Shown here one piece after another: positions 12,977 through 34,951 of a stretch of 64,000 bases of DNA. Source of the DNA: Plasmodiophora brassicae (Eukaryota; Endomyxa; Phytomyxea; Plasmodiophorida; Plasmodiophoridae); assembly GCA_039704465.1 (NCBI GenBank), contig JASFAU010000002.1:1488001-1552000 (forward strand). Reading direction: 5' to 3'. The notes beneath the pieces were generated by a model. The model did not search any database. It saw nothing but the letters and a program-made list of their open reading frames with translations, and was not told the DNA's origin. The translations under genes and the position numbers were made by a program. Numbering within the stretch: position 1 is the stretch's first letter; every line of letters starts with the position of its first letter.

Positions 12977-14545
12977 CGCAACCGAGGCCTTGACGTTGTG
13001 CAGGAGATGCCGAGGCGGGATCGACACTGGCGGACGGACGGACGGGTAGAGACAGCAAGCGGTCAGGGAAACACCGGCGGCCTGGGAGGCAAACAAACAG
13101 CACGGCGGGACACGCGCACTCTGGAACTTGGACCAGCTGCGACCGAGGCCTTGACGTTGTGCAGGAGATGCCGAGGCGGGATCGGCACGGACGGACGGGA
13201 AGAGACAGCAAGTGGTCAGGGGAACACCGGTGGCCTGAGAGGCATACAGCACGGCGGGACACGTACTCTGGGACTTGGACCAGGTACGACCAAGGCCTTG
13301 ACGTTCTGCGGGGATGCCGAGGCGAGATCGGCACGGACGGACGGACGGGCGGGAAGAGACAGCAAGCGGTCAGGGGAACACCGGTGGCCTGAGAGGCATA
13401 CAGCACGGCGGGACACGCACTCTGGGACTTGGACCAGGTACGACCGAGGCCTTGACGTTCTGCGGGGGATGCCGAGGCGAGATCGGCACGGACGGACGGA
13501 CGGGCGGGAAGAGACAGCAAGCGGTCAGGGGAACACCTGTGGCCTGAGAGGCATACAGCACGGCGGGACACGCACTCTGGGACTTGGACCAGGTACGACC
13601 GAGGCCTTGACGTTCTGCGGGGGATGCCGAGGCGAGATCGGCACGGACGGACGGGAAGAGACAGCAAGCGGTCAGGGGAACACCGGTGGCCTGAGAGGCA
13701 TACAGCACGGCGGGACACGCACTCTGGGACTTGGACCAGGTACGACCGAGGCCTTGACGTTCTGCGGGGGATGCCGAGGCGAGATCGGCACGGACGGACG
13801 GGAAGAGACAGCAAGCGGTCAGGGGAACACCGGTGGCCTGAGAGGCATACAGCACGGCGGGACACGCACTCTGGGACTTGGACCAGGTACGACCGAGGCC
13901 TTGACGTTCTGCGGGGGATGCCGAGGCGAGATCGGCACGGACGGACGGACGGGCGGGAAGAGACAGCAAGCGGTCAGGGGAACACCTGTGGCCTGAGAGG
14001 CATACAGCACGGCGGGACACGCACTCTGGGACTTGGACCAGGTACGACCGAGGCCTTGACGTTCTGCGGGGGATGCCGAGGCGAGATCGGCACGGACGGA
14101 CGGGAAGAGACAGCAAGCGGTCAGGGGAACACCGGTGGCCTGAGAGGCATACAGCACGGCGGGACACGCACTCTGGGACTTGGACCAGGTACGACCGAGG
14201 CCTTGACGTTCTGCGGGGGATGCCGAGGCGAGATCGGCACGGACGGACGGGAAGAGACAGCAAGCGGTCAGGGGAACACCGGTGGCCTGAGAGGCATACA
14301 GCACGGCGGGACACGCACTCTGGGACTTGGACCAGGTACGACCGAGGCCTTGACGTTCTGCGGGAGATGCCGAGGCGAGATCGGCACGGACGGACGGGAA
14401 GAGACAGCAAGCGGTCAGGGGAACACCGGTGGCCTGAGAGGCATACAGCACGGCGGGACACGTACTCTGGGACTTCGACCAGGTACCACCGAGGCCTTGA
14501 CGTTCTGCAGGAGATGCCGAGGCGGGATCGACAGGAGGGTGGTGG
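12977..14545. repeat. 147/155-bp minisatellite, about eleven units
   Basis: The anchor CCTTGACG recurs at 12988, 13149, 13296, 13450, 13605, 13752, 13899, 14054, 14201, 14348 and 14495. Spacings are 147 bp or 154-155 bp, with 161 for the first; the longer units carry one extra GGACGGAC-type octamer. Inner units are almost identical and outer ones diverged, as expected for unequal exchange. Since 147 is divisible by three, long open frames appear on both strands; these are not genes. Confidence 0.9.
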
Positions 14546-14661
14546 GATAGGTAGTCCGTCAAAATGTCACGATCAGGCAAGCTGATGCAACGAACGCTTT
14601 GACGGACTGGCGAAGTCCGTCGCGGGGTTCTCGGTTTATTCCGGACAGTCCTCACATCGTT

Positions 14662-15672
14662 GGACGTTGGTGAGGATGTATTGGTTTTCGCGTTGCTGTC
14701 GCGGTACCAGATGTGTCGTTGCAGCGTGCATTCGCCGTTAGTGTGCTTGGATCCGGGATGGAAGACGCAGGACTCGTTGCGTCGTGGTCCACGGGGACGC
14801 GTCGATGTGGCGCAACTGGAGCGGTTGGCCGTTTGGAACGCGTCGTGTCGGTCCCGCACGTCTTGGACCCTGATCTCCTCGCTTGTCAACGACCCGACGA
14901 CCTCGGAGACACTGGGCAGCGTGTCCAGAGCACGATTGTGCAGGCCAGCGACGACGGCGTCGAAATCGGATGATGCGTTGGCCAAGATGAGGACGGCGAC
15001 CAATGCGTCGGTGAGGGACAGCATCTCCGTCGGTACCGTCGACCGGACGCGATGAGCCGCTGCTTGAACTCGGGCGGCGTACGTGGCGACCGACTCGCCG
15101 GACATGTGCTGGACCGTGACGAGGTCGCGGACGGCGCGCACGACCGATGCCAGCGACGATGGGCTGTACGCCTGGAACAGCACGCGCCAGCACTTGGCAG
15201 CCGAGCCTGCCTGAAACAAAGACAACGCGGACGCGATCTTGTGGTCCAGCATGTGGACGAGTAGAATCTCGCGCGCGGCTGCCTCGAGAGGTGGGTCGTG
15301 TGCCGTACCGGTTGTCGCATTCGGTGAGCCATCTTCGTTGATCCCGATGACGTCCGCGTACCCACGATTGCGAAACCAGAGTGCAGCTGTCTGAACCCAG
15401 GACGTGAACGAGTCGGGAGTACCGTCGAACTTGGGCATGGGCAGTCGGCCTGCGTCGCTTCGGCTGTGCGCCTCGGCGATGATCGGCATGGCCGGGGTCG
15501 ATGGACAGCTGGTCGGACGCGCCAGCTGCTGCTGCAGGACGCGGAGGCGGTCGATCTTCTCCTGCCTGGCGATCGTTGCCTCCGCTTCGGCAATTCGGGT
15601 GTCGATCTCCTCGAGCGACAGATGACACAGCGGGTCGTCATCCGTGTTAGGCGTCGCCTGGCGCTCGGCCAT
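14662..15672 (-). pseudogene. Copia I Gag, cut by insertion
   Basis: Starts at the ATG at 15672 (MAERQAT). Acidic helical N-terminus, then the copia Gag core (LPMPKFDGTPDSFTSWVQTA, SLFQAGSAAKCWRVLFQAYS, VATYAARVQAAAHRV). The usual zinc knuckle is altered: only a CVFHPGSKHTNGEC-like remnant (C-x2-H..H..C) is visible. The frame then runs into the inserted element at 14661 and reads through its LTR and minisatellite. Copies II and III have the same Gag. Confidence 0.85.
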
Positions 15673-15715
15673 GGCGAGTAGAGGCTCAGCGCCTGCGTCT
15701 ATACGACTGTTAATC

Positions 15716-15899
15716 TGAGAAAGACAATAATGGAGTGGATATATTACGTACGGCGTGTGCGGCGGACGTTACAGTGGCGACGTAGTCGCCGACGGTGTAA
15801 CGGTTGCCAACGCCGGCGGGCACGGAGTCGCGGAGTGCGTGACGGCGTTCACGTGCTGCAGGCATGTGCTGCTGGTCGTAGTGGATACGTTGTTCGACA
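15716..15899 (-). repeat. Copia I 5' LTR
   Basis: 184 bp from TGTCGAACAACG at 15899 to CTTTCTCA at 15716. It is followed on the minus strand by the 14-nt primer site and about 30 nt later by the gag ATG. Its outer end abuts the interior of copia II with no target duplication. Confidence 0.85.
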
Positions 15900-18590
15900 T
15901 CCGGCGCCTTCCACCATTCGCCCGGCGGTTGACGGCGACGATCCGATCGGCGAGGGCGTGGCACATCGATTACATTGGGATCAACATCAGCGTCGGCGGC
16001 ATTATCGAGGACAGCGGGATCGGCAGCTTCGTTGGAAGAGTCGCTGCCGGACGCCGAATCTTCGTAGTCGGGATCATCTTCAGCGTCATCATCGTCTTCG
16101 TCGGTGGATACGTCGTCTATGCGGGCATTCAGAACGTCGGCTGACCGAGAAATGTGACAGGCGCCGTCAGGCGCACCGGCGTCCGCGTTCTGGGACGCAG
16201 GGTCAGGAGACGGTGAACGTGACGGTCGGACGATCTCGGAAGGCGATGACGCAGCGGAAGGTGAAGGAGGTTCAGGAGGGGCTGTTGCGATTGAGGATGC
16301 TAACGTCGATGGTAGAGGTGCCATGATGGCGTCGGAAGAGATGGGCGTCGGGACGATCGTGTCAACGTTCGACGCAGGGCTCGACTCGGGACTGGATGGT
16401 GGCGCTGATGATGAACTGGCCGAGGTCGATCTTCCAAAGCCGAATGTGAACGAGTTCTCCAAGAATTCGGCAGTCGTGCTCTCGAACGTGTCTTCGCGGT
16501 CCACGTCGTAGAACCGCCACGCCTTCATGCCGGGCGTGGACCGACAACGGGCCACCGACCGGATAAGTCGCTGTGCACGAGATCGCCGACACGAAGTGCC
16601 CGCGACTTACTCTGAGGAAATGAGGAACGCTTACCTTTGACGAGGAGGCAGGCTTCGCATGGGCACCGGTCCGAACGCTTGGGAATGGGGCCGTCGAATT
16701 TCATACCACGACAGCGGTTCCGCAGGATGTGCAGATTGCCATAACCGAGATGGCCGATTCGTGCGTGCCACAGATCGGGAGATGCAGCGGTGATCTTTGC
16801 GGCGCGACAGGCGATGTCGGATACGATCAGGGAACAGGCTGGTACAGTCGGTTGCGTGTTGTTGGTGGATGGAGCTGATAGTGCGATCCGGTACAGGTTG
16901 TCTTGCCCACGGGTGCTGATCGCCACTGGCTGCCCGGTGGGTGCCGTCCAGCTGTCCTTCGAGTAGATGGTGGCGGTGGCGCCGTCGAATACGATCTTGT
17001 GGCCTGATCGGGTGAGTTGTCCGACTGAAACAAGCGCTTGACCAAGTCGTGGGACGTGCAGTGAGTCGATACTCATCGCCCGGGCATCCTTGCCGAACGA
17101 CATCACGCCCCGACCGGACGTAGTCGTTCGCGACAAATCAGCTAGTTCGACTTCTGGTCCAGAGACGCGTCGATAACGTCTGAGATGCTGGCGCAGGGGT
17201 GTCATCGTTGTGGAACAGGCCGAGTCCAATAGTCCCATTGAGCTCGCGCTCGCGTCAATGGAGTGGCGTGCCGACAATGCATGCGTTGGCTCGGATGCCG
17301 GATCTGTCAGGAGAGCACCAGACGATGGATACTCGTGGGACGTTGGTGACGATGTATTGCTGTTGTTGTTGTTGTTGTTGTCGCGATGCCAGATGTGCCG
17401 CTGCAGGCTGCATTCGCCATTCGTGTGCTTCGATCCCGAATGAAAGACGCAGGACTCGTTACGTCGAGGTCCACGGGTATGTGTCGACGTATTGCAGCTG
17501 GATCGGTTGGCCGTCTGGAACGATTCTTGTCGGTCCCGCACGTCTCGGATGCGAATCTCTTCGCTCGTCAGTGACACAACGACCTCGGAGACACTGAGCA
17601 GCGTGTCCAGTGCACGGTTGTGGAGGCCGGCGACGACCGCGTCCAGGTCGGATGATGCATTGGCCAGAATGAGGACGGCAACCATAGCGTCAGTAAGGGA
17701 CAGCATTTCGGTCGGTACCGTTGCGCGGACGCGATGAGCTGCTGCTTGAACTCTGGCCGCGTAAGTGGGGACTGATTCGCCGGGCGTGTGCTGGATCGTG
17801 ACGAGGTCGCGGATGGCGCGCACGACCGATGCCAGCGACGACGGGCTGTACGCCTGGAACAGCACGCGCCAGCACTTGGCAGCCGATCCTGCTTGAAACA
17901 AGGACAACGCAGACGCGATCTTGTGATCCAGCATGTGGACGAGTAGAATCTCGCGCGCGGCCGCCTCCAGAGCTGGGTCGTCCGTCGTACCGGTTGTAGC
18001 GGTCGGCGAGCCATCTTCGTTGATCCCGATGACGTTCGCGTATCCACGGTTGCGGAGCCAGAAGGCCGCGGTCTGAATCCAGGACGTGAACGAGTCGGGC
18101 GTCCCATCGAACTTGGGCGGCGGTAGCCGACCTGCGTCGCTTCGGGTGTGCGCCTCGGCGACCATCGGCACGGGCGGGATCGGTGGACAGCTGGGCGGGC
18201 GCGCCAGCTGCTGCTGCAGGATTCGAAGACGGTCGATCTTCTCCTGCCTTGCGACCTTTGCCTCCGCCTCGGCTAGGCGGATGTCGATCTCGTCGATCGT
18301 CAGGAGATTCAACGGGTCGTTATCCGCGTTCGGCGTCGGCGTCGCCTGGCGCTCGGCCATGACGAGTAGGGGTAAAGCGCCTGCGCCTACGACTGTTAAT
18401 CTAAGGAAGACAATAACGAAGTAAAGTGTATTACGTGCGGCGTTTGCGCAACGGCACGGTGGACGTTACAGTGGCGACGTAGTCGCCGACGACGTAACGG
18501 CTACCAACGGCGGCGAGCGCGGAGTTTCGGAGTGCGTGACGGCGTGCTGCAGGCATGTGCTGCTCGTTGTACTGGACATGTTGTTTGACA
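15900..18590 (-). mobile_element. Copia element II, internally deleted and truncated
   Basis: 5' LTR at 18402-18590 (189 bp), primer site at 18401-18388, gag-pol from the ATG at 18360. The continuous frame covers Gag (PPPKFDGTPDSFTSWIQTA), protease (LLDSACSTTMTPL), and the integrase zinc finger (HARIGHLGYGN..CPCEACLL), to HSDLSGRWPVVG at about 16550. A deletion then removes the rest of the integrase and joins GMKAWRFYDVDRED, the spacer before RT. The element stops at 15900 against the LTR of copia I. RT, RNase H and 3' LTR are missing. A CAA/TTG triplet run lies at about 17358-17381. Confidence 0.85.
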
Positions 18591-19944
18591 GCAGGGGTGT
18601 CATCGTTGTGGAACAGGCGGAATCCAGTAGGCCAACTAAGGTCGTGTCTACGACGGGATGACGGGCTGATATTGCTCGAACAGAGGGGTACGCGTCCGAC
18701 GGTGTCTTTGTATTCGTGTGCCACAGATGACGCTGGGCGCGACACTTGCCGTTCGTGTGCTTCGGATTGGCATCCGGGTGCAGCATGCACGGATCGTGGC
18801 GCGAATGATGTGGTGTCCGGGTCCGCCTGGTTCGTCGCGACTCGATTCGCCGTTTCGAAGGACGTCTGCTCGCGGCCGCGCGCTTAACAAATACGAGCCT
18901 CCTCGCTTGTTAATGAGGCCACGATGTCGGCGACTATTGGCCGTGTCTCCAGGTCACGGCTGTGCAGGCTGGCGGTGACGGCATCCAGTTCCGGCGACGC
19001 ATTGGCCACGAGCAGGGTGGTGACGAACGCGTCGGTGTTCACGAAGAGGTCTGGCGGGACTGTAGCACGAACGCGATGAGCAGCGGCCTGCAGCCTAGCA
19101 GCGTAGTTGACCACCGACTCGCCAGACTCTTGAGGGACGCCCATGAGGTCGCGCACGGCTCGGACAACTGATGCCAGGGTTGACGGACGGTATGCTTGGT
19201 AGAGGACTCGCCAGCACTGCGCCACCGATCCAGCATGCAAGAGCGCCAGAGCCTGGACGGTCTTCATGTCCAGCATGTTACTCAACAGGATCTCCCGCGC
19301 CAACGCCTCAGCCTTGGCGTCCACGGCGGTCGGCAGCGTGTCCGACGGTGTTCCATCCATCCTGATCCCGATCACGTCTCCATACCCTCGGTTCGTGAAG
19401 AACATGGCCGCGAATGGCGCCCACGTCGAAAACGCGTCCTGCGTGCCGTCGAACTTCGGGAACTGCGGTCGACCGGCGTTTGCACGACCAGACATGTCCA
19501 CGATCGGCGCGTGGATCGGGCTGGCGAATGTCGACGTGGTTGTCGATGGCGGCTGCGGCGTTTCGGGATGAGCCATCTGGTGCTGCATCGACCGGATTAA
19601 TGTTATCTTGCGGTGCCGGTCGTGGGCTGCCTTGGTTTCCGCCAGCACGGTGTCTAGATCGAGGTCTGATAGGGATGCGAAGTCGTCATCGACTGTCTGC
19701 GCCGACTGGCCCACGGCCATGACGCGGAGCGCGGCTGGGCGCTACGACTGTTAATCTGATGAAGCCGATAACGAAGTGAGTGTATTACGTACGGCGTTCG
19801 CGCAACGGCACGGTGGACGTTACAGTGGCGACGTAGTCGCCGACGACGACACGGTTGCCAACGACGGCGAGCACGGAATTTCGGAGTGCGTGACGGCGTG
19901 CTGCAGGCATGTGCTGCTGGTTGAACTGGACATGTTGTTTGACA
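18591..19944 (-). mobile_element. Copia element III, 5' part only
   Basis: 5' LTR at 19757-19944 (188 bp), primer site GATTAACAGTCGTA at 19756-19743, gag from the ATG at 19720 (MAVGQSAQ). The Gag frame (PKFDGTQDAFSTWAPFAAMF, LALLHAGSVAQCWRVLYQAY) runs to about 18884. After a frameshift the protease start (LLDSACSTTMTPL) follows, and the sequence stops at 18591 where the LTR of copia II begins. The Gag differs clearly from I and II, so this is a separate subfamily. Confidence 0.82.
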
Positions 19945-21541
19945 CCTTGCATGCCCTGCACTACAGTTCGCAGTCTGTTCAAATGGACATATGTTTCCTG
20001 CGGATAAGACAGGCATTGGAGAAATGCCGTCTTGTTGCCGGGGCAAGACCGAACGGTTCTATTATCTGCCGCGATTGTTACAGGTAGAATAATGTTAAAA
20101 TGTTATGCTGACGACTATTTTTCGCTAACTATAATGTAGATTCAACAGACTTTGAGCGTGATGATACTTCGTGCCGAGATCTCCCATCTGGAAGATATTG
20201 CCGAAAAGCCTAAAGCTTTCTATGGGGATTCGTCTGACGGAAGTATATTCCGCGACGTTTTCGTTCCCTTCGCACGGCGATGCAAACAGTATTCATAATC
20301 GTACTGCTCTACGTACCATGCACTGATTGTCGACGTGCTTCAATGTCCTTAGGAACAAATGTATCCCAATTGCGACCTCTACAGGCGTCGATGCCGCCCG
20401 CGTGACCAAATGGATGACCAAATCCCGGACGCCCATGCTGTCCGTAAATCTCTGCTTGCCTGAGGAGCTTCGCTGCAACGCAAGCCTTTTAATGCTGTAT
20501 GGTTTAATGCCTGAGATACGGGGTCCTCAAGCAGGTCGTGTTCGACAAGCCATTCAATGGTATTTCTTCATAGGTAGAACTTTTGAAGTCTACTTTATCA
20601 GCCGTTACATGGTACAGTCTTGACGTATTCGAGTTGAATCTTGGCTACTTGTACGGTGTCCCATACTGGGATGGGGATCTGCAGGAAATTCGACACTTTC
20701 GTGTTATCCACCTGCACCAGGTACGTACGTCCTATCGTTTCAGGGAACAGAAGTTGTATTCAACGGTAGATTTGTTTTTCCGATAGACCCATGATTACGT
20801 TGAATTCCCGAAACACGCCAAGTGTGTATTCCGAGGAAAACGCGATGCATGTAACCGCTGTCATGTCCAAGGACAGACTGTCGGGCATCAAACTATATGC
20901 CTGAACAGTACGGGTATGTTATAAAAATGTTGCAAATGTTGTTGTCGCTTTCTGGTGTCACCCCTAAGTATGACGTGCGTGTACCATTTAGATTGTCTCT
21001 TAAAAAGGGATTCGGACACCTTGCGGCGCATGGAAGCGAGGGACAGTTCCTCCCAAGGCGTATCCGACCAGCAAACCGCCCTTGACCCGGACATTGATTC
21101 CACTGGGTTGGTATGCGTTCGGAAACGCCACGCAATTCGTCCTGTGTGCGATGCACAGTTTCCTTTTAAACACACTGCCCCGGCTGTGGTCAATCATTAG
21201 CCCGAGGACTGGTTCGAAGTCTTGCGTTCTCTATATGCCCAGAAGGTTGCTTGTTGATGTGGCATTGACCGAACACGATGAAATACTGATGCAATGCAAA
21301 CAGATCGAAGAGGCTCTCGGCAAGACATTCGACAGGTCGCCATGATGGGCGGTTCCTGCTGACAAATATAGACCAGATTCTCGCACCGGCAGGACCGCAC
21401 TCGCCGTCAAAATGGATGAGCTTCTCCATTCGGTTCGCTGGTGCACAGGAAATTTGGAACGCTAGAATTACGGGAATATTAATTGACAGTACGTATGTTG
21501 TTTTGAAAGGGAACAGTATGAAGCCTGGAAACTGTCTCTTC
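19945..21541 (+). pseudogene. Decayed tnp2-type (CACTA-like) transposase, upstream part
   Basis: GC content drops here. At about 20380-20520 the plus strand reads GVDAARVTKWMTKSRTPML then SVNLCLPEELRCNASLL and LYGLMPEIRGPQ. This resembles the region of tnp2/Transposase_21 proteins in which a fixed stretch ends in LPxxLR, followed by a small-residue/GP motif. The rest is broken by frame changes, some perhaps introns. The DUF4218-like part of the same gene resumes at 23633 beyond the TRIM array. A CACTACAG octamer at 19959 may mark an end, but no partner was found. Assignment is by motif only. Confidence 0.45.
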
Positions 21542-23632
21542 TGATGAAGACGATAACGAAGTGATTTATTCCGACCGACATCGGCGCGAGACGGCGGCGA
21601 CGTAACGCTGTGTAACAGGGGCTTGCCAGCCGTTACCGACAACGGCGTCAGTGGCGGAGCCTCTGCCGTGGACGTTACACAGTCGCGCACAGTCACAGAG
21701 TCACCGTGTGCCGGTGGTACTGATGAAGACGATAACGAAGTGATTTATTCCGACCGACATCGGCGCGAGACGGCGGCGACGTAACGCTGTGTAACAGGGG
21801 CTTGCCAAGCCGCTACCGACAACGGCGCCAGTGGCGGAGCCTCTGCCGTGGACGTTACGCAGTCGCGCACAGTCACGGTGTCACCGTTTGCCGGTGGTAC
21901 GACATGGTCCTTGACACGCCCCCTCCAACGGCACGCGGTTGCATGCGGAAGACGGTCGAACGGATGTGTCCCGGCTTGACCTTTGACTCTGGATCATGAA
22001 CAACACCGCCTTGCACGTGCTCATATGCCTTGGCTCGTTGACGCGGCACGAGACGGATTGTGGCGTAGCTAGAGGTGACATGAATGGCGCAATTTGCTGA
22101 GGCGGGTTCGACGATGACGCGCAGGGTGTTGGATCTGGCTCAGGACGACGTCGACGCAGATTGCGCCGACGGACAACGTTATCTTGCGAAGCGATTGAGG
22201 GAAGCGATTGAGGCCCGTACGACCGGCGTACGCCTGGCGCTTACGTCCCGGTACTGGTTCTGGATCCCCTTAATGACGGCCTGCCTTGCTGGCGCGATCT
22301 GCCTGGACACTCTTGCGCGTGGCGCGGACTCGAGCGGGCGTTCGTGGCGCGTTGTGCAGAAGCAGGGTCAGGGCAGAGACGCAGTGACGCGGGACTGGCA
22401 CTGGATGGCACCGGCGCGCGGGGCGCCGGCGGGCTCCCCGCCTCGAAGCGCGTAGAGCGCGTACGACTGTTAATCTGATGAAGACGATAACGAAGTGATT
22501 TATTCCACTGACATCGACACGAGACGATGGCGACGTAACGCAGTGTAACAGGGCTTGCCAAAGCCGTTACCGGCAACGGCGACGGTGGCGGAGCCTCTGT
22601 TGTGGACGTGACACAGCCGCGCACAGTCACAGCGTCATCGTGTGCCGGTGGTAGGACATGGTCCTCGACACGCCCCCTCAACGGCACGCGGTTGCATGCG
22701 GAAGGCGGTCGAACGGACGTGTCCCGGCTGGACCTTCGACTCTGGATCATGTACAACACGACCTTGCTCGTGCTCGTATGTCTTGGCTTGTGATAACGAA
22801 GTGATTTATTCCGACCGACATCGGCGCGAGACGGCGGCGACGTAACGCTGTGTAACAGGGGCTTGCCAAGCCGCTACCGACAACGGCGCCAGTGGCGGAG
22901 CCTCTGCCATGGACGTTACGCAGTCGCGCACAGTCACGGTGTCACCGTTTGCCGGTGGTACGACATGGTCCTTGACAGGTACGACATTGTCCTCGACACG
23001 CCCCCTCCAACGGCACGCGGTTGCATGCGGAAGACGGTCGAACGGACGTGTCCCGGCTCGACCGTTGGCTCTGGATCATGAACAACACGGCCTTGCACGT
23101 GCACATATGTCTTGGCTCGTTGACGCGGCACGAGACGGATCGTGGCGTAGCTAGAGGTGACATGGACGGCGCGATTTGCTGAGGCTGCTGTCGACGATGA
23201 CAACGCAGGGCTCCTGGTCTGGCTCAGGACGAAATCGACGCTGAGCGCGCCGGCGGACAACGTTATCTTGAAAGACGAGTGTGGCAAGCGATTGAGGCCC
23301 GTACGACTGGCGTACGCCTGGCGCTTACGTCCCGGTACTGGTTCTGGATCCCCGTAGGACGACCTGCCTTGCTAGCGCGATCTGCCTTGGCTCTCTGGCG
23401 CGTGGCGCGGACTCGAGCGGGCAATCGTGGCGCGTTGTGCAGAAACAGGGTCAGGGTAGAGACGCAGTGACGCGGGACTGGCACTGGATGGCACCGGCGC
23501 GCGGGGCGCCGGTGGGCTCGCCGCCTCGAAGTAACGAGTGATTTATTCCGACCGACATCGGCGCGAGACGGCGGCGACGTAACGCTGTGTTACAGGGGCT
23601 TGCCAAGCCGTTACCGTGGCGGAGCCTCCGCC
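21542..23632 (-). mobile_element. TRIM tandem array, minus orientation, rearranged
   Basis: At least five TRIM LTRs alternate with interiors: a truncated LTR 21542-21720; LTR 21721-21916; a full interior to 22475; LTR 22476-22671; a shortened interior; LTR about 22793-22999 with a 21-bp internal duplication (GTACGACAT..TCCT..GACA); interior to about 23530; and a truncated LTR to 23632. Each interior begins with the primer site or ends with the polypurine tract of the TRIM family (GATTAACAGTCGTA visible at 22475-22462). Copies are diverged, so this array is older than the one at 26529-30421. It splits the tnp2/DUF4218 gene. Confidence 0.82.
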
Positions 23633-25010
23633 AAATTTGGAAGGCGCACGATTCGCTTCTGTGGGCCAGCGACTTCGGTTTAGCGGTGTTTCACAACCTG
23701 GCGAACGAATGTTTGAGAAAATCAGGAACGCGTATTTCTCATTCGTTGACACGTGCAATCGCCTGCTTTCGAAGTGCATTCTTAAAAAACGACTTACCAA
23801 AGCTTAAAGATCAACTGTTCCAAGCTTGCAATGAACTCGAACGCGTCGCGCCATCAACGTTGATGACAATCTCAGTAGGTGTTGTACTATGCTGTCGCAA
23901 ATTAAAGCTAACCCCTGTCTTTGAAGGTACACTCGGTTGTTCATCTACCCGAAATAATCGAACTCTTTGGCCCCTTCGCAGGGTTTGTGTGGGCCTTCCT
24001 GATGGAACGGTTCACGTTGCGAATGAAAAATTTCGTAATGTCTACTGTTGGATTTTCAGCGAATATCGTGAAGAATTATCAGCTATGCTCGGCATCCATC
24101 AAGCTGAGGTACTTTCATCATGTCTATGCGAGATCACGGGACTGACCATTGCTTCCAGGTTTGCCTATCCTGGTCGCTTCAAGCACTCCACTCTCTCGAG
24201 TCGCAAACTTTCCTGCATGGACACTCCTTGCACTGGAACAATGCTGTTACAACTTTCTTGAGCTCGCCCCTTCAAGGAAAGGACCATGACATTATCTGAT
24301 GATGATAGATGCCACTTGCATCAGAACTTATGCACCGATGACTGGCAGCATTACCACAACTCGCCTGTCGTTCAGCACTACCGCAAGGTGTGCCGATTGT
24401 TTCGAAGGGAAGTGGACTCCCCAATCGAGCGCTTCAGCGAGATGCGACTTCACATCGGCTCATTCGACGCATTCTGCGGACACTGTCACGGTCGAGTCGC
24501 TGCCTTGGCGACTCAGCCAGCACCTAATTGGGATCCTCCGCAGCGCACTAGTACATAAACGTCCACGGCGTTGGACCGACCTCAGTCGGTCAATCCGTGT
24601 GGTTGACACATCTTGCTCTGTCGTCACAAACACGTTGCCGGAATGCGTCTGCTGCCATCAACGTGCGAGGTTTTCAACGAAGCATGCTTTGGTAATTTCA
24701 CAGGCATGTAGTTCAATCACTTCTTAAATTACTAACCAACGGGTTACAGGCAACTGCCTCTGGAAGGCAAACCTGGCGGAGAATGGCGACGAGCCAACGA
24801 CGAACAACCACTTGGTCGTGACGGTCGGTGAAGGCTGGCGATATTTGGGCGCCATTCGCCGGTTGGCGCGCGTATCCCTTCCGTCCCAGAACCAGCTGCG
24901 AACGTTCAACGTTCCAACTGGAATGTTTTTATTGCTACAAGTAAGGCACTTGGTGTGCATACCCGACTCGGAAGTCTTATTTGAGCATAAGGTGGTGGGA
25001 AATTGGCAAC
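23633..25010 (+). pseudogene. DUF4218-like C-terminal part of tnp2-type transposase
   Basis: Plus-strand frames read GERMFEKIRNAYFSFVDTCN, then KLKDQLFQACNELERVAPST, and after a probable 52-nt intron (about 23876-23926) VHSVVHLPEIIELFGPF and MERFTLRMKNFV. This follows the DUF4218 pattern: a paired Leu/Glu helix, Pro-Ser, HLxxHLPE..GP, then ER..L..L/MK. DUF4218 follows Transposase_21 in CACTA/En-Spm proteins. A frame change near 23790 and a solo LTR at 24484 break it. A further stretch at 24812-24940 (VTVGEGWRYLGAIRRLARVS) may be its C-terminus. Confidence 0.55.
24484..24628 (+). repeat. Solo LTR of the gypsy B family
   Basis: 145 bp, TGTCACGG..GTCACA, matching the 5' LTR at 30773-30918 with scattered changes. 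The hairpin GACCGAC-CTCA-GTCGGTC is preserved. Flanks are GACAC and AACAC, a near but imperfect 5-bp duplication, consistent with an old insertion reduced by LTR-LTR recombination. Confidence 0.8.
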
Positions 25011-25299
25011 GCTGACCCTGACTTGGAAGCCGGAGGACCCTGTGGTCTGACGCTTCCAGGATACATTACTCTTGAATCGACCTCTTCTTTCAGCCCTTGG
25101 TTCCCCGTTGAGCAAGCCGTACCGAATAACGTCGTCCTGGTGCCCAGCGTCCTGAATCTGAGATCTCACGATACCGGAAGTCGTAAACGTCGACGTGTCA
25201 GCGTCGACATTCAATTCGTCTATATGCTTGGCCGTTTCCAACATGGTTCCCGGCTCATTAATTTCGGCAAGTTTATTCGATTAAGGCACAGTTAGTTCT

Positions 25300-26180
25300 T
25301 GAGAGCAAGGCGTCGAAACCGTGGATGTCTCACCGTCACCATCTACCAGCGACTCTCTCATTATTCGACGTTAGCTCGTGATTACCAGCATGTGAGGAGC
25401 ACAGTGGCTGCAAAAACGTCGTCTGCAGTCGCTTTGCATCTACAAGGTGATCCGGATTGAATGCGGGTGACGTTTCTGCAGCCTACCTGCATCCTAAAGG
25501 GATGCAGATTGAATGCGGATGACGTTTCCGCAGCCTACCTGCATCCTAAAGGAGATGCAGGTAGGATGCAGAAACGTCCACCTGCATCCAACCAACCGGG
25601 GGGCGCTGCCCCAGTGACCTAGCTGGTCAGGAGTACCAGCAGCAGGTCAGCAAGCAGTTGTGGGACCGCAAGGTCCCCAGTTCGAGGCACGATCTCCCCC
25701 AAAAAGGTCCCGGTGACCAACAGCCGTAAATGTTGAAGGGGTGTTTAGTGATCAGGCAGCCCAAAGTGCCAGAGCTTTAGGGGTCTCGCTTGAGCGTCTG
25801 GGAGGTAAAGGAACGGCCCGTAACAAGTGTATGTCGGCGCCCCGGCGTAGGCAGTATGGCGAAGAGGTCCGACAAGAGTGCAGTCGACAGGTCCGAGCGA
25901 ATCACGTCCCGTTCCGATATCGTTCAAGGCGCGATGAACCCAGTACAAAGGTGATGGGCCGGCACTGCCAGGCCGTGGGATGTTGGCGTTCTGCTGCTGA
26001 ACCTTCGATCCTCGGACTCGAGACCGAGGCGCCTGCGTGAAAAGCGCGAAACCAAACCAAACCTGCATCCAACCTGCAGCCGGTCTGCAGTCATTTCGCA
26101 TCCGATCTGACGCCAGTGGACGGAGCTCATTTTGGATGACTGGAACACCTCCAAATAAGAAACAAGGCCGACATGGAACG
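25300..26180. other. No gene recognised; foldback repeat at one end
   Basis: A 100-aa plus-strand frame (25741-26040, Arg-rich) has no recognisable domain. Repeated CTGCATC/GATGCAG motifs occur at both ends (25425-25590 and 26062-26105), so the whole interval might be a non-autonomous DNA element. Confidence 0.4.
25455..25580. repeat. 52-bp direct repeat plus inverted copy (foldback)
   Basis: A unit starting GATTGAATGCGG at 25455 repeats at 25507. Then an inverted copy of its second half follows (25553-25577), giving CTACCTGCATC/GATGCAGGTAG perfect arms within a longer 25-bp arm pair with one mismatch. Confidence 0.7.
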
Positions 26181-26189
26181 CTTACCCGA

Positions 26190-26528
26190 ACTTACAGATT
26201 TTGATTTCTTCGAAAGGAAACGTCTCGGCAACGACCTGTTCGATCTGGTGTTCCTCCACAAGCCATTGCTGTACCCGTCTTAGCAACTCCTTCTTGGTGG
26301 ACAAGGCCACAAAATCTGCCAGCTTGTGGTCCGGGACCAACCTGCCAACGGGACATGTCAAACTTGTTGCAAACGAGATATAGATTATACATACTGCTTC
26401 AAAGTTTCCTTGCAAAAGAGGAGAAGTTGAAAGCGCGCCGAGTCTGTCCTCTGGCGGACACCTTTGCCGAGAAACGACAGCAGGTGAGCGTGGAACAACA
26501 GATCCCGCGAACGCTTGAACATCTCCTT
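26190..26528 (-). pseudogene. Unidentified exon pair beside the TRIM array
   Basis: The minus strand holds a protein-like stretch (VPDHKLADFVALSTKKELLR, then VQQWLVEEHQIEQVVAET) bounded by AG at about 26387 and GTAAGCG at about 26190. Upstream of a short intron (GTATGTATAATC..TTGGCAG) is another open stretch that continues across the TRIM array into 30427-30480 if the array and one TCCTT are removed. I do not recognise the family. It may be a host gene or an old transposon gene broken by the array. Confidence 0.4.
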
Positions 26529-29500
26529 TGTCGAGGATCATGTCGTACCACCGGCACACGGTGACGCCGTGACTGTGCGCGACTGCGTAACGTCCACGGC
26601 AGAGGCTCCGCCACTGACGCCGTTGTCGGTAACGGATTGGCAAGCCCCTGTTACACAGCGTTACGTCGCCGCCGTCTCGCGCCGATGTCGGTCGGAATAA
26701 ATCACTTCGTTATCGTCTTCATTAGATTAACAGTCGTACGCGTTCTACGCGCTTCGAGGCGGCGAGCCCGCCGGTGCCATCCAGTGCCAGTCCCGCGTCA
26801 CCGCGTCTCTGCCCTGACCCTGCTTCTGCACAACGCGCCACGAACGCCCACTCCAGTCGCGCCACGCGCCAGAGAGCCGAGGCAGATCGCGCAAGCAAGG
26901 CAGGCCGTCATTACGGGAATCCAGAACCAGTACCGGAACGTAAGCGCCAGGCGTACGCCGGTCGTACGGGCCTCAATCGCTTGCCTCAACCTCTTCTCGA
27001 TATAACGTTGTCCGCCGGCGCCTTCGGCGTCGGTGTCGTCCCGAGCCAGGTCCTCCTCTCTGTGTCGTCATTGACGACTCCGCCCCAGCATATCGCGCCA
27101 TACATGTCAGCTCTAGCTACGCCACGATCCGTCTCGTGTCGCGTCAACAAGCCAAGACATACGAGCACGAGCAAGGTCGTGTTGTTCATGATCCAGAGTC
27201 AAAGGTCCAGCCGGGACACATCCGTTCGACCGTCTTCCGCATGCAACCGCGTGCCGTTGTTGGGGGCGTGTCGAGGATCATGTCGTACCACCGGCACACG
27301 GTGACGCCGTGACTGTGCGCGACTGCGTAACGTCCACGGCAGAGGCTCCGCCACTGACGCCGTTGTCGGTAACGGATTGGCAAGCCCCTGTTACACAGCG
27401 TTACGTCGCCGCCGTCTCGCGCCGATGTCGGTCGGAATAAATCACTTCGTTATCGTCTTCATTAGATTAACAGTCGTACGCGTTCTACGCGCTTCGAGGC
27501 GGCGAGCCCGCCGGTGCCATCCAGTGCCAGTCCCGCGTCACCGCGTCTCTGCCCTGACCCTGCTTCTGCACAACGCGCCACGAACGCCCACTCCAGTCGC
27601 GCCACGCGCCAGAGAGCCGAGGCAGATCGCGCAAGCAAGGCAGGCCGTCATTACGGGAATCCAGAACCAGTACCGGAACGTAAGCGCCAGGCGTACGCCG
27701 GTCGTACGGGCCTCAATCGCTTGCCTCAACCTCTTCTCGATATAACGTTGTCCGCCGGCGCCTTCGGCGTCGGTGTCGTCCCGAGCCAGGTCCTCCTCTC
27801 TGTGTCGTCATTGACGACTCCGCCCCAGCATATCGCGCCATACATGTCAGCTCTAGCTACGCCACGATCCGTCTCGTGTCGCGTCAACAAGCCAAGACAT
27901 ACGAGCACGAGCAAGGTCGTGTTGTTCATGATCCAGAGTCAAAGGTCCAGCCGGGACACATCCGTTCGACCGTCTTCCGCATGCAACCGCGTGCCGTTGG
28001 AGGGGGCGTGTCGAGGATCATGTCGTACCACCGGCACACGGTGACGCCGTGACTGTGCGCGACTGCGTAACGTCCACGGCAGAGGCTCCGCCACTGACGC
28101 CGTTGTCGGTAACGGATTGGCAAGCCCCTGTTACACAGCGTTACGTCGCCGCCGTCTCGCGCCGATGTCGGTCGGAATAAATCACTTCGTTATCGTCTTC
28201 ATTAGATTAACAGTCGTACGCGTTCTACGCGCTTCGAGGCGGCGAGCCCGCCGGTGCCATCCAGTGCCAGTCCCGCGTCACCGCGTCTCTGCCCTGACCC
28301 TGCTTCTGCACAACGCGCCACGAACGCCCACTCCAGTCGCGCCACGCGCCAGAGAGCCGAGGCAGATCGCGCAAGCAAGGCAGGCCGTCATTACGGGAAT
28401 CCAGAACCAGTACCGGAACGTAAGCGCCAGGCGTACGCCGGTCGTACGGGCCTCAATCGCTTGCCTCAACCTCTTCTCGATATAACGTTGTCCGCCGGCG
28501 CCTTCGGCGTCGGTGTCGTCCCGAGCCAGGTCCTCCTCTCTGTGTCGTCATTGACGACTCCGCCCCAGCATATCGCGCCATACATGTCAGCTCTAGTACG
28601 CGCCACGATCCGTCTCGTGTCGCGTCAACAAGCCAAGACATACGAGCACGAGCAAGGTCGTGTTGTTCATGATCCAGAGTCAAAGGTCCAGCCGGGACAC
28701 ATCCGTTCGACCGTCTTCCGCATGCAACCGCGTGCCGTTGGAGGGGGCGTGTCGAGGATCATGTCGTACCACCGGCACACGGTGACGCCGTGACTGTGCG
28801 CGACTGCGTAACGTCCACGGCAGAGGCTCCGCCACTGACGCCGTTGTCGGTAACGGATTGGCAAGCCCCTGTTACACAGCGTTACGTCGCCGCCGTCTCG
28901 CGCCGATGTCGGTCGGAATAAATCACTTCGTTATCGTCTTCATTAGATTAACAGTCGTACGCGTTCTACGCGCTTCGAGGCGGCGAGCCCGCCGGTGCCA
29001 TCCAGTGCCAGTCCCGCGTCACCGCGTCTCTGCCCTGACCCTGCTTCTGCACAACGCGCCACGAACGCCCACTCCAGTCGCGCCACGCGCCAGAGAGCCG
29101 AGGCAGATCGCGCAAGCAAGGCAGGCCGTCATTACGGGAATCCAGAACCAGTACCGGAACGTAAGCGCCAGGCGTACGCCGGTCGTACGGGCCTCAATCG
29201 CTTGCCTCAACCTCTTCTCGATATAACGTTGTCCGCCGGCGCCTTCGGCGTCGGTGTCGTCCCGAGCCAGGTCCTCCTCTCTGTGTCGTCATTGACGACT
29301 CCGCCCCAGCATATCGCGCCATACATGTCAGCTCTAGCTACGCCACGATCCGTCTCGTGTCGCGTCAACAAGCCAAGACATACGAGCACGAGCAAGGTCG
29401 TGTTGTTCATGATCCAGAGTCAAAGGTCCAGCCGGGACACATCCGTTCGACCGTCTTCCGCATGCAACCGCGTGCCGTTGGGGGCGTGTCGAGGATCATG

Positions 29501-30421
29501 TCGTACCACCGGCACACGGTGACGCCGTGACTGTGCGCGACTGCGTAACGTCCACGGCAGAGGCTCCGCCACTGACGCCGTTGTCGGTAACGGATTGGCA
29601 AGCCCCTGTTACACAGCGTTACGTCGCCGCCGTCTCGCGCCGATGTCGGTCGGAATAAATCACTTCGTTATCGTCTTCATTAGATTAACAGTCGTACGCG
29701 TTCTACGCGCTTCGAGGCGGCGAGCCCGCCGGTGCCATCCAGTGCCAGTCCCGCGTCACCGCGTCTCTGCCCTGACCCTGCTTCTGCACAACGCGCCACG
29801 AACGCCCACTCCAGTCGCGCCACGCGCCAGAGAGCCGAGGCAGATCGCGCAAGCAAGGCAGGCCGTCATTACGGGAATCCAGAACCAGTACCGGAACGTA
29901 AGCGCCAGGCGTACGCCGGTCGTACGGGCCTCAATCGCTTGCCTCAACCTCTTCTCGATATAACGTTGTCCGCCGGCGCCTTCGGCGTCGGTGTCGTCCC
30001 GAGCCAGGTCCTCCTCTCTGTGTCGTCATTGACGACTCCGCCCCAGCATATCGCGCCATACATGTCAGCTCTAGCTACGCCACGATCCGTCTCGTTCGCG
30101 TCAACAAGCCAAGACATACGAGCACGAGCAAGGTCGTGTTGTTCATGATCCAGAGTCAAAGGTCCAGCCGGGACACATCCGTTCGACCGTCTTCCGCATG
30201 CAACCGCGTGCCGTTGGAGGGGGCGTGTCGAGGATCATGTCGTACCACCGGCACACGGTGACGCCGTGACTGTGCGCGACTGCGTAACGTCCACGGCAGA
30301 GGCTCCGCCACTGACGCCGTTGTCGGTAACGGATTGGCAAGCCCCTGTTACACAGCGTTACGTCGCCGCCGTCTCGCGCCGATGTCGGTCGGAATAAATC
30401 ACTTCGTTATCGTCTTCATTA
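26529..30421 (+). mobile_element. TRIM tandem array: six LTRs, five interiors, one TSD pair
   Basis: LTR starts lie at 26529, 27269, 28009, 28750, 29487 and 30226, giving periods of 740, 740, 741, 737 and 739 bp. Each interior (about 545 bp) begins with the primer site GATTAACAGTCGTA and ends with a polypurine tract (GGAGGGGG or variants such as TGTTGGGGG) before the next TGTCGAGG. The units are almost identical. The 5-bp duplication TCCTT flanks the array as a whole (26524-26528, 30422-30426), and the last LTR ends TTCATTA exactly at it. ORFs of 63-179 codons recur on both strands but hold no known domain. Confidence 0.93.
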
Positions 30422-30426
30422 TCCTT

Positions 30427-30772
30427 AACGTTCCAGTCTTTGCACCGCCGCTGCCCCCCTTCCATGTTTTTTCCTCACAGCTAATGGGAGACCATTCAGA
30501 CGAATGATAGTGCGGACTAGCGTCATCGGTGCAACCTTTCTTCCCGGTCGGACACGGCTGGTGAAGAAGACAGTTGATTCGGAGGAGACGTGTCCAGGCC
30601 ATGACGACGAGACTGCTCGTCTTCATCTTCCAGCGACGCGATTGACGAAGACGGAACCACGGCTGGCGCGGCTCGAGCGCGTCTCCGCGAACGTTCCTGC
30701 CGGCGAGAAGATGCGGGCGCCATCGATGTCGTACGGTAGTCCTTTCAAATAATGCGCCTCCGCCGCCCCCTC
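30427..30772 (-). pseudogene. Upstream part of the gene split by the TRIM array (unidentified)
   Basis: The minus strand has open frames (about 30770-30430), including KGLPYDIDGARIFSPAGTFA and, in another frame, a basic RTIIRLNGLPLAVRKKHGRG stretch. One frame would join 26528 after removal of the array. No family recognised, and frame changes prevent a confident model. Confidence 0.3.
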
Positions 30773-32460
30773 TGTCACGGTCGAGTCGCTGTCTTCGCGA
30801 CTCAACCGGCACCTAATCGGGCTCCTCCGCCGCGCAATACCTACAATAAACGTCCACGGCGCGGACCGACCTCAGTCGGTCAATCCGTGTGGTTGACACA
30901 TCTTGCTCTGTCCTCACATTTTGACAGACTAACCTCTTCGGTCGGCGCGCGCGTATCGTATCGTCTTGGATCGTGTATCGTATCGTCTTGGATCGTGTAT
31001 CGTATCGTCTTGGGTCGTGTATCGTATCGTCTTGGATCGTGTTTCGTATCTGTAAGCATCGCAGCCATGGCTGGAGGCGATGGGTTGGTTCCGGCGTCGG
31101 CGGACCCCTCACCGTCCGCTAATCCGGACATTGCGGCTGCATCGGATGTTGCTGGTGCCATCGAGCTGCGCGACCTGAAGGCGGAGATCCTCGATATCTT
31201 ATCGCAGTTGAAGTTCGCGCATGGCTCCCTGCCTAGGAACAGCTCTCCCGCAGCGCCACCCGATTCGTCGAATTCGGTCGCCCCGTCGACGCCGGAGCCG
31301 TCGTCCCTGCCGCCGTCGCCGCCTTTCGTTGCCCAATCCAATGATATCCCGGGTTTCTCGGGAGCGGACGGTCTGTCGACGACGCGTTGGTTGACTGCCT
31401 TCGCGCGCATCACCCAGACACCGTTAACGTCAACTAGCCCGCTGTCCGATGCTGTGCAATGCATCTTGACGACGGCCTTGAAAGGATACGCCCTGGAGAC
31501 TTATCTTGACCTGCCTGAGGATGCGTCCATGGCGGACGTGCGTCCGCCCTGCTTCGGGATTTTCCTGAACCTTCGTTAAAACAGGTCGACTTTGACAATT
31601 GGAAACAGACTTCCCGTATGGTCCACCATGCGCGGGAGTTCCAGCGTTTGTACAACAAGGTCCAACAACTCGACCCCCTATACAGGCTGAGTCCGTCCCG
31701 CTTGTCGGAAAAGTTCCTCTTATCCTTGCATCCTGCGCTTTCAGACGCACTCTTTATTTACAACTACACCGAGTACGACAAGATGCTCGAGATGTCGATT
31801 CACCTCGAACCGAAGTATCCGATCGCCGCCGTTAACGCTATCGAGGTCGGAGGGGCGCAACCGTTGGTCTGCCACTATTGTCGCGAGGCTGGACATTTTA
31901 TTGCGTCCTGCCCCAAGCGACCCCCGCGTCAGCACTGTCACAAGGTTGGTCACCGCTCCTCGCTGTGTCCTGAGCGGCCTGCCGCTGCTGGTCCTCCGAC
32001 GTCGCCCCCAATCAGCGTCAGCGCGCAGCAGCATGATCTTCCGGGAAATGTTCCCGGGCGTCTATGAACGGGTTCCCCAGTCGCCCAGTAAACATTCCTT
32101 TTGGTTCCGAACCCGACTTCCTTCATGTTACTGATTTATTCTTTACGTCGGCTACATCTATACCACATCTATAACCGGTACCGTTGGACAACGTGGACAC
32201 GGGCGGACCCACGGCCTTGGCAACGGCCGAGCGTGGGGGTAGGGCGGGGAAAGGGGTACCTGCTTAACAGTCATGTGCACCACGTTCCACGAACCCCAGC
32301 TGAACGTCATGGGCGTCTGCAATCTAAGCTGTGGGAAGGTCAAGCAAGAGTGCCGGGCGATTGTTGCCAAGGGCGTCGACGACGTCACCGTTCCCGCGGA
32401 TACCGAAACCTTGTCGTCAATTGACTTTATCAGTTGTGACCTGGTTGGATTCTAAATGAC
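30773..32460 (+). mobile_element. Gypsy-type element B: 5' LTR and gag remnant
   Basis: 5' LTR 30773-30918 (146 bp, TGTCACGG..CCTCACA) with AATAAA and the hairpin GACCGAC-CTCA-GTCGGTC (30864-30881), followed at once by the putative priming site TTTTGACAGACTAACC (30919-30934). A four-fold 22-23-bp repeat (GTATCGTCTTGGATCGT) lies at about 30953-31045. Gag follows. No protease, RT or 3' LTR is recognisable beyond about 32460. Confidence 0.7.
31067..32066 (+). pseudogene. Gypsy B Gag with zinc knuckle, frameshifted
   Basis: Begins at ATG 31067 (MAGGDGLVPAS). N-terminal Pro/Ser-rich region, then a Gag core (IPGFSGADGLSTTRWLTAFA) to about 31560, where a frame change occurs. The second frame carries FDNWKQTSRMVHHAREFQ, LSPSRLSEKFLLSLHPAL and a complete CCHC knuckle CHYCREAGHFIASC (about 31870-31911). 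A second knuckle has lost its first Cys (RQHCHKVGHRSSLC). The layout matches the Gag of element A at 34018, though the sequences differ widely. Confidence 0.7.
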
Positions 32461-32944
32461 GTCGTTGCCATTAAAGATAGCGCCTTTGCTGGGATGCGCC
32501 GCCATTGCTGGGATGCGCCTCGACCGTGACGCCATCACGGCCGTTGCTGCAACCAATCCGCGCGCCTGGGCGGGTTTCGAAGGGAAGCGCGTCAGCGGCG
32601 TTTCAAAGGCGAAGACCATTCAGGAATGCGACCTGATTCAGTACTGCTATGATCAGGACCGAACATCGTCGCGATCCACTAACCGATCCGAAAAGTTTAT
32701 CCTGGTCGACCGACAAGCGGATTCGGACACTCTAGCGGAAGCTTTCATTCGGTATGAGAAAGGTCGGCTGGGGAACGAACGAGCGCTCTGTACATGGAGA
32801 TGTGGCGACTGACCGGCATCGGAATGAGGAGAGGCGCAACGGGATTGACTCGGGGTTTGGAGAAGCACTTTGGGTTGACGTTGAGTAAAACTGCAACTGC
32901 TTCTAAATCGGTCCCAGGGTGGCCAAAGGGTAGGTAATAGACGT
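32461..32944 (+). other. Unidentified ORF region
   Basis: A plus-strand frame of about 118 codons ends at 32812 and includes AGMRLDRDAITAVAATNPRA and SEKFILVDRQADSDTLAEAF. It has a protein-like composition but no motif I can name. It may be diverged element B sequence or part of another mobile element. Confidence 0.3.
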
Positions 32945-33545
32945 TGTCGACGGAAATAGGCGTTATGTCATGTACACCGTTTGGAGCGGCGCCTGCGGTG
33001 GGCCCTTCTGGTCGGGCTCCCCAGCCGGTCGCCCTCGGTTTCATCACAGACGAATGCCTTCCTTATCGTCGACTGGTACGCCGTGCACTAAGCCAGCCAC
33101 CGAGGGCCCAACCTATTAAGAAATAGACGCTATATCGTGTACACCGTTTGGAGCGGCGCCTGCGGCGGGCCCTTTAGTCGGGCTCCCGAGCCGGTCGCCC
33201 TCGGTTTCGTCGCAGACGAATATATGTCTACCTCACCGTCGACTGGTACGCCGTGCGCGGGTACTCAGGCGGCGACCGAAGGGCCCAACCTGTTAAGAAA
33301 TCGGCGTTATATCGTGTACACCGTTTGGAGCGGCGCCTGCGGCGGGCCCTTTGGTCGGGCTCCCGAGCCGGTCGCCCTCGGTTTCGTCGCAGACGAATGT
33401 CTACCTCATCGTCGACTACGCCGCGCACGGGTACTAAGCCGGTCACCGAAGGGCCCAACCTGTTAAGAAACGGGCGTTATATCGTGTATACCGTTTGGAG
33501 CGGCGCCCCTGCGGCGGGCCCCTTTTGGTCGGGCTCCCCCGCCGG
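32945..33545. repeat. About 175-bp tandem repeat, four units
   Basis: The anchor GTACACCGTTTGGAGCGGCG recurs at about 32970, 33137, 33315 and 33487. Each unit also holds GGGCCCTT.TGGTCGGGCTCCC, GTCGCAGACGAAT and AGGGCCCAACCTGTTAAGAAA. Units vary by short indels and diverge toward the right end, where the array passes into the foldback region. Confidence 0.8.
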
Positions 33546-33599
33546 TCGCCCTCGTCGTCGCCGGGGGGCCGACACCCGATGCAGCGTCCCCCTGAGCAG

Positions 33600-33890
33600 G
33601 GCAGCAGACGGCGTTTTGGGCGGCGCCCTTGTCCAACGGTTTCCGGCGCCCACTGTCCAAAACGTCCAAAGTTACCGTGACATACGTATATCTGTATGTC
33701 ACCGGTAACCGCCGGTGCGATCCGTCATATCGTGCGGTAACTTTGGACAACGGCGCCTGGGGTATCTTTGGACAACGGGCGGCGGGGTGCGCCCACAAAC
33801 AGGCGCAACAAACTGCGTGGCCGACAATGCCGTCATACAGATAGCGGTCCCGGGGGGTCCCGTTGTCCAAAGCTTTGTCCACAAGTAGGT
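33600..33890. repeat. Foldback structure with GTTGTCCAAA motifs
   Basis: GTCCAAAGTTACCG (33664-33677) is inverted at 33735-33748. Inside it, GTGACATAC (33677-33685) pairs with GTATGTCAC (33694-33702), and the arms extend with one bulge to 33671-33709. TTGTCCAA/TTGGACAA motifs occur at least six times between 33628 and 33880 on both strands. Non-coding; it may be a MITE or foldback element immediately upstream of gypsy A. Confidence 0.65.
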
Positions 33891-34017
33891 ATGTATTCAT
33901 CTATGTCAGGCGTCGACATAGCAGGTCGGCGCCGGAATAAAGTCCGTGCGAGCGGGGACCGACGGCAGTCGGTCAACGCGTCGTCGTATAGTCGTGACAG
34001 TTTGACCGACCTTCACC

Positions 34018-34948
34018 ATGGACACTCGTGGAACCCAACGCAACCGCGATCACCAGGACCCCGACGAGGAGCCATTGAACACACCCTTATCGGCGCTGAC
34101 CAGCACGATCGCGGCGATCGTAGCGGAGGCGCTCCAGGCACAGCGCGCCGACATCGACGCCATGCTCCGGCAGCAGCGCGCAGAGATCTTGGCGCAGGTC
34201 GCCGCCAGCCCGTCCATCGTCCCCAAGACCGAAACCATTGATCCTGATCGACCGCCGACTCCCTTGTCGACCATATCGTACTCCACACCAGTTCGGCTGC
34301 ACACGTTCACGGGCGATGACTCGGTCGGTCCAATGTCTGCGACGACGTGGTTCGACGAGTTTTGCCGCTTCGCTGACGCGGATCCGACGTCAACGGCACC
34401 GCTGTCGAATGCGGCCAGGAGCCTGTTGGCGTCGAGCCTGGACGGCGTGGCGCTGAAGCTGTACGTGGCTATCAAGCCATCGTCCCCGCAGGCCCTCAAG
34501 ACAATGTTCCTGGAGAACTTTCCGGAGATCACTGCCGCGCGCGCCAAGTCTGAATTCGACGCCTGCGCCAGACGGGCCCGTTTGCCGGGCATCTCGTGGA
34601 GTTTCGCCGCCGCTACTTTGTCGCTGTCGCCCGCGACCCGGACTGCCGTCTAAGCGACTCCTCGCTGGCCGAGAAGCTGCGCACATCGCTGACCCCTGCG
34701 CTGGCCGAGGAGCTGTACAAGTGGCAGCTGCGCAGCTTCTCCGCCATGGTGGATACGGCGGTCCATCTGGCGCCGCTGTTCCCGGTGCCGTCGACTGCGA
34801 TTTTGAACGTGGCCACAAGCGCGCTGCAGCCGCTGACCGACGAGGAGCGGGACCGTTGTCGCCGCGAAGGCCGCTGTTTTCGCTGTCGCGAACCGGGACA
34901 CATGGCGAACCAGTGCCCCCGGTCCCAGCCGGGAAATGTTCGCGGGTG
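34018..34948 (+). pseudogene. Gypsy A Gag, frameshifted
   Basis: From ATG 34018 (MDTRGTQ). It has an amphipathic coiled segment (LTSTIAAIVAEALQAQRADI), the Gag core (SATTWFDEFCRFADADPTST), and a frame change near 34600. The second frame carries FRRRYFVAVARDPDCRLSDS, LAEKLRTSLTPALAEELYK and one CCHC knuckle CFRCREPGHMANQC at about 34878-34919. The intact structure would be roughly 310 residues. Confidence 0.8.
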
Positions 34949-34951
34949 ATC

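Follow-up and report, generated by a model that had tools for sequence, protein, structure and literature searches.

The window analysed here, a stretch of 64,000 nucleotides from Plasmodiophora brassicae (Rhizaria), carries long terminal repeat (LTR) retrotransposons of three families: gypsy A, gypsy B and a short element that we call C (Table 1). In all three, the primer binding site (PBS) beside the LTR is complementary to a segment of the LTR itself, and an earlier note on this DNA had proposed that the elements are self-primed. Searching the genome (25.3 Mb in 21 contigs), we found three additional families with a self-complementary PBS (D, K and M), and in all six families the site lies 1-2 nt inside the LTR end. 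Judging from sequence, these six families of P. brassicae Ty3/gypsy elements very probably use the 5' end of their own RNA as the primer for minus-strand DNA; the proposal gains support from covariation in further copies, those of K and M, and from the comparison with host tRNAs. The copies studied are a minority, and the families a part, of those in a genome where 150 reverse transcriptase (RT) places are listed.

In gypsy A, a check of the letters bears out both the hairpin GACCGAC/GTCGGTC and the 9-nt site TTGACCGAC at 34002-34010; the 3' arm GTCGGTC is contained in the predicted self-primer AGTCGGTCAA (33967-33976). The A copy in the window is internally deleted, its RT being cut short and the frame resuming at the integrase end. 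In element C, the hairpin and the 11-nt complementarity between AGTCCGTCAAA (14598-14608) and TTTGACGGACT (14553-14563) were confirmed in the same way. The two LTRs of C are identical, and a 5-bp target-site duplication (TSD), TCGTT, flanks it at 12534-12538 and 14657-14661, which marks it as a recent insertion. No RT was found in element C (12539-14656), which is mostly made up of tandem repeats spaced 147 and 155 bp apart (13186-14530). It is evidently a non-autonomous relative of an RT-bearing element, L069, that has the same hairpin and PBS and a different U3 (the unique 3' region of the LTR). The one-mismatch site noticed earlier in gypsy B is present at 30921-30930, and is private to the window copy: 19 of the 21 B units examined have the PBS TTGACCGACT, with full pairing over 10 nt.

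How often would such matches arise by chance? Inverted repeats of 10 nt at this spacing number 26 in the window, against 7-17 in ten Markov shuffles; isolated inverted repeats are thus too common and were dropped as evidence. Position beside the LTR, together with recurrence, exceeds chance. When the 22 nt inside the LTR were shuffled, the observed match length was reached, per 1000 shuffles, twice in A, 10 times in B, 7 in C, 3 in D, twice in K and never in M, families A, B, C, D and K being mutually related. The pattern AGTCNNTCAA-N15-45-TTGANNGACT occurs at 58 sites genome-wide and its reversed counterpart at none; of the 50 sites listed, 47 also have complementary bases at the free NN positions. 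A looser pattern anchored at the LTR end has 68 matches in the genome against 4 for its control; at least four of the 68 fall outside all families described here (C1:809540, C2:90776, C5:352984 and C6:694692), a number to be read beside the four of the control.

We compared 40 whole units (11 of A, 21 of B, two of C, one of D and five of K), excluding 32 partial matches. LTR segment and PBS pair fully in 27 of them, at all except the first nucleotide in nine, and with a mismatch in four. Opposite the first RNA nucleotide, the PBS carries C in eight and T in three of the 11 A units, C in three and T in two of the five K units, and T in all 21 B units; a shifted RNA start, copying of the cap or plain mutation could each produce this variation. 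Identical LTRs with flanking duplications of 4-5 bp were seen in the single pair compared per family, L012/L024 for A, L040/L046 for B and one each for C, D and M, so that elements with these signals have moved recently.

The predicted self-primer is AGTCGGTCAA in A, B and D, AGTCCGTCAAA in C, AGTCGGTTAA in K and a 17-nt segment in M. The joint change of both hairpin arms and the priming site between A and C, already pointed out in the earlier note, is there, but it amounts to a single base pair, by which C differs from A, B and D alike. Family K (five copies: L118, L119, L122, L123 and L129) adds a second, different base-pair change, again made in three places, both hairpin arms and the PBS. 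M, whose LTR measures 179 bp (L121:925-1103; an identical 3' LTR is found in L131), is the strongest case of covariation. Its PBS, 17 nt long and one nt past the LTR, is the perfect complement of LTR positions 77-93 in both L121 and L127; in L136, a relative with 75% identity, five changes in the segment are met by five matching changes in the PBS, so that 17 of 17 positions remain paired within the same limits. These two copies and L136 come from eight M-LTR matches: the 5' and the 3' LTR account for two each, and the other four are relatives. Three of the relatives were fetched; besides L136 they include L138, which has no PBS. The claim of covariation extends to further copies. As first put, it did not separate two phenomena, that of the LTR segment with the PBS and that of the upstream arm. 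Under self-priming, the former would be enforced by copying, because the primer would serve as template for part of the PBS in each new element, as in the scheme for Tf1 (compare a passage of PMC4600332).

Table 1. Positions in the window of the elements and of the candidate self-priming signals
Feature	Position	Strand	Evidence
Element C, short LTR element with internal tandem repeats	12539..14656	-	identical LTRs, TSD, repeats
C 3' LTR, 92 bp	12539..12630	-	letter-by-letter check
C primer binding site TTTGACGGACT, 11-nt complement, 1 nt inside LTR	14553..14563	-	
C 5' LTR, 92 bp	14565..14656	-	letter-by-letter check
C predicted self-primer AGTCCGTCAAA, expected RNA 5' end	14598..14608	-	
C upstream hairpin arm GACGGACT, in U3	14614..14621	-	
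C AATAAA, 32 nt upstream of expected RNA start	14635..14640	-	
Solo B LTR without PBS	24484..24628	+	
Gypsy B LTR, 146 bp	30773..30918	+	
B AATAAA, 29 nt upstream of expected RNA start	30845..30850	+	
B upstream hairpin arm GACCGAC	30864..30870	+	
B predicted self-primer AGTCGGTCAA	30874..30883	+	
B primer binding site TTGACAGACT, with a mismatch (C to A) private to this copy	30921..30930	+	
B gag-like open frame containing a CCHC zinc knuckle	31519..32067	+	
Gypsy A 5' LTR, 96 bp	33904..33999	+	
A AATAAA, 31 nt upstream of expected RNA start	33936..33941	+	
A upstream hairpin arm GACCGAC	33957..33963	+	
A predicted self-primer AGTCGGTCAA	33967..33976	+	
A primer binding site TTGACCGACC, 9 nt paired; final base C or T between copies	34002..34011	+	
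A open frame: protease and truncated RT	34457..36982	+	
A open frame: integrase C-terminus with SH3_Tf2-1 and chromodomain, Pfam	36904..37533	+	
A 3' LTR, 85 bp, without self-primer segment	37548..37632	+	

The upstream arm is complementary to the primer segment in 38 of the 40 units and covaries as well in the five families A, B, C, D and K. Since this arm is not copied from the primer, the matched changes in C and K indicate selection for the hairpin, which is possible only at the RNA 3' end because the RNA 5' end would start with the hairpin's 3' arm. In the copies measured, an AATAAA motif precedes the expected RNA start by 29-32 nt (31 in A, 30 and 29 in B, 32 in C, D and K), and the start itself falls between the two bases of a CA dinucleotide; both features are consistent with the predicted RNA start. 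The M LTR has no AATAAA, and no upstream-arm hairpin forms in the M junction fold. One might take the hairpin for the functional object, a promoter palindrome or a terminator, with the PBS match a by-product of arm duplication. The U3 arm is indeed nearly a copy of the PBS and its pairing is widely kept, as just seen; yet M has the LTR:PBS match and no such hairpin, and in A-K the match runs 2-3 nt past the hairpin (AA/TT), which makes this alternative very improbable.

Minimum-energy folds of one leader per family, taken from the expected RNA start, place an LTR:PBS duplex around a further stem in six of six families. The predicted duplex with its inner stem is reminiscent of the structure that Lin and Levin reportedly showed in 1998 to be needed in Tf1. 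A conserved RNA structure serving packaging, dimerisation or translation rather than priming would account for these stable folds, and covariation by itself proves pairing, not priming. Against this, the duplex sits where a primer must be to give the LTR end (within 1-2 nt), no other PBS is seen at the site beside the LTR, and the position agrees with the self-priming proposed for Tj1 after Tf1 (in a passage of PMC4600332). We regard a purely structural role as quite improbable.

From these features we infer a scheme for the RNA start, the nicking, the priming and the role of the hairpin. Transcription would begin at the A of the LTR segment that complements the PBS, and the 5' end of the RNA would fold back onto the site 1-2 nt inside the LTR; the folded end would then be nicked on its 3' side and extended through U5 (the unique 5' region). 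In Tf1, the primer is nicked by RNase H and the complement is 11 nt. In A, B, C, D and K, the second arm just upstream of the RNA start would make a hairpin at the RNA 3' end that may either hide the second copy of the primer or set the poly(A) site. If it hides the second copy, we propose that only the 5' copy could prime. No part of the system is explained less well, or is of more interest, than the covarying U3 hairpin.

Could a host RNA be the primer instead, be it a tRNA 3' end, an internal tRNA fragment or another small RNA, the match to the LTR being incidental? In plants, tRNA-type sites are found in most LTR elements, according to passages of PMC6317226. Among 482 tRNA candidates, 63 were scored, of which we used all 46 nuclear ones and 13 of the 17 from contig C21, that is 59 distinct predicted sequences in 40 stretches. 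The longest run between a tRNA 3' end and the PBS in this incomplete set is 2 nt in A-D, 1 nt in K and 0 in M. On this set, tRNA priming was rejected for all six families, and the match with a host tRNA 3' end that the earlier note had named as a refutation did not turn up in the set. None of the A, B and C sites starts with TGG, as had been stated, and the same is true of the other three. Internal matches are longer, 9 nt between the A site region and tRNA-Val(tac), 8 nt for K and M to other tRNAs and 6-7 nt for B, C and D; however, the tRNA-Val match takes in no more than the final portion of the A PBS and extends past it. In family E, a chromodomain gypsy family of the same genome (L071:2287-2502, 216-bp LTRs), TGG lies one nt inside the LTR, with a 7-nt 3'-end run to a trimmed tRNA-Thr. 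Its LTR is followed by GTGGCCAC, and no self-complementary match was found, the longest LTR complement being 5 nt, equalled by 985 of 1000 shuffles. For the six families, the five compensated changes in M and that in K would be unexpected if a host RNA were the primer, and we consider such priming very improbable.

Several observations nevertheless weigh against self-priming. Many nuclear isotypes are missing from the tRNA set. A/B/D, C and K stand one base pair apart each, so that covariation within their clade rests on two changes. Four of the 40 units are mismatched (L010, L035, L045 and the B copy of the window), as is the NN pair in three of the 50 listed sites of the 58-site pattern. Interior 22-mers reach the observed match length against their own LTR in 30 of 1218 cases in A and 14 of 1094 in K; A alone would for this reason not convince. 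In L137, a relative of M, the LTR segment is partly lost, with 9 nt left. Finally, the AATAAA motif may act as a poly(A) signal, as a TATA-like box or in both capacities.

The families fall into two lineages. One clade (support 98/88) unites the RTs of A, B, C, D and K, which lie among fungal, vertebrate and metagenomic relatives; plant and green-algal RTs stay separate from the group that these families share with fungi and vertebrates (100/94 and 100/99). The trees use database names and hold no curated Tf1 or sushi reference. Family D has a single frame of 1658 aa in the Ty3/gypsy order protease-RT-RNase H-integrase, A, B, C and K having been scanned in part. A chromodomain ends the integrase of A by Pfam, and chromodomain matches lie inside elements of B, C-type, D and K. 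In the RT-RNaseH tree, M groups with three metagenomic relatives (100/100), then joins a set including Lampetra, Dicrocoelium, Trichinella and Trichuris (95/94). Uniting M with A, C and D in a single clade is rejected (p-AU 2.2e-66, from two trees with long branches elsewhere and Cordylochernes placed with E and F), and we place M in a gypsy lineage outside the A/C/D clade on the basis of these trees. None of 147 chromodomain matches in the genome is close to either copy of M, the frame end in M being outside the Pfam scan. Families E, F and H, taken for contrast, all branch far off; LTRs of F and H were not found in the regions fetched.

Self-priming is a known mechanism, and it is the lineages and the host group that look new. 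It is usually discussed for fungal and vertebrate Tf1/sushi elements; passages of PMC6317226 describe it in Tf1/sushi and in moss Tcn1, with predicted cases in mosses and in the TAR copia elements of plants. Like Tf1, Tf2, Tj1 and moss Tcn1, A-K have a PBS of about 10-11 nt complementing an LTR stretch that is expected to form the 5' end of the RNA, as well as a chromodomain integrase, and the RTs of A, C and D have fungal and vertebrate relatives. Unlike them, A-K have a rhizarian host and LTRs of 92-146 bp; a possible further difference is their covarying U3 arm, which pairs with the primer segment. In the plant TAR lineage too, self-priming is predicted from sequence, there outside Tf1/sushi (PMC6317226, same passages); TAR belongs to Ty1/copia, whereas A-K and M are Ty3/gypsy. 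M groups with gypsy lineages that lack a chromodomain among the matches listed (Trichinella, Dicrocoelium, Trichuris, Lampetra; many with a p58-type integrase end), and carries a 17-nt self-complementary PBS; these relatives were compared by RT-RNaseH only. The dictyostelid Skipper elements are also protist chromoviruses mostly lacking TGG, but have no complementary LTR region in the account given in part of PMC5006619. For SM-Tcn1, passages of PMC2864245 give evidence for neither tRNA priming nor self-priming. We found no report of self-priming in Rhizaria among the listed titles and abstract openings, mostly of open-access literature.

A wider reading, which we hold possible rather than probable, is that a single rhizarian genome holds two distinct Ty3/gypsy lineages in which self-priming either arose or has persisted. 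In one of them no chromodomain is detected and the self-primer measures 17 nt; in the other, a U3 hairpin formed only at the 3' end would hide the second primer copy, leaving priming to the 5' copy, and would bring AAUAAA near the poly(A) site. If two rhizarian lineages are indeed self-primed, tRNA priming would be easier to escape, or would have been escaped earlier, than has been supposed. The covariation seen in nature (two single changes in A-K and five in M) suggests the length and ends of the primer, and a rule whereby each new copy takes its PBS afresh from the RNA 5' end. The hairpin raises a question common to any self-primer, namely how the identical copy of R (the terminal repeat of the RNA) at the 3' end is kept from competing.

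Thirteen further 5' regions were taken, five of which are K and two M. The other six (L120, L124, L125, L126, L128 and L130) yielded no LTR boundary, L125 and L128 showing repeat-rich inverted repeats only and L124 one 8-nt pair. A search of viral contigs for relatives with readable LTRs gave 211 pattern matches and no relative. Three P. brassicae proteins correspond to the elements: P0008 is 100% identical to copy L020 over 433 aa, P0010 is 99.7% identical to L069 over 369 aa, and P0121 is 100% identical to M with 60% of the query covered.

Element C appears nested, with its TCGTT duplication, between two minus-strand Ty1/copia open frames (8594-12625 and 13819-15768; RVT_2 and integrase, and gag). 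Within a transposon-rich stretch, a tandem unit of about 740 bp is repeated six times at 26529-30525, the copies being nearly identical across most of the unit, and pieces of it recur on the opposite strand near 21541-23605. Contig C21 (114,743 bases), which holds 17 of the 63 tRNA matches, for many amino acids, is probably the mitochondrial genome, judging from its length and what it carries. In the RVT_1 search of the genome, 17 matches share one common score (42.1 bits) and possibly represent a young family.

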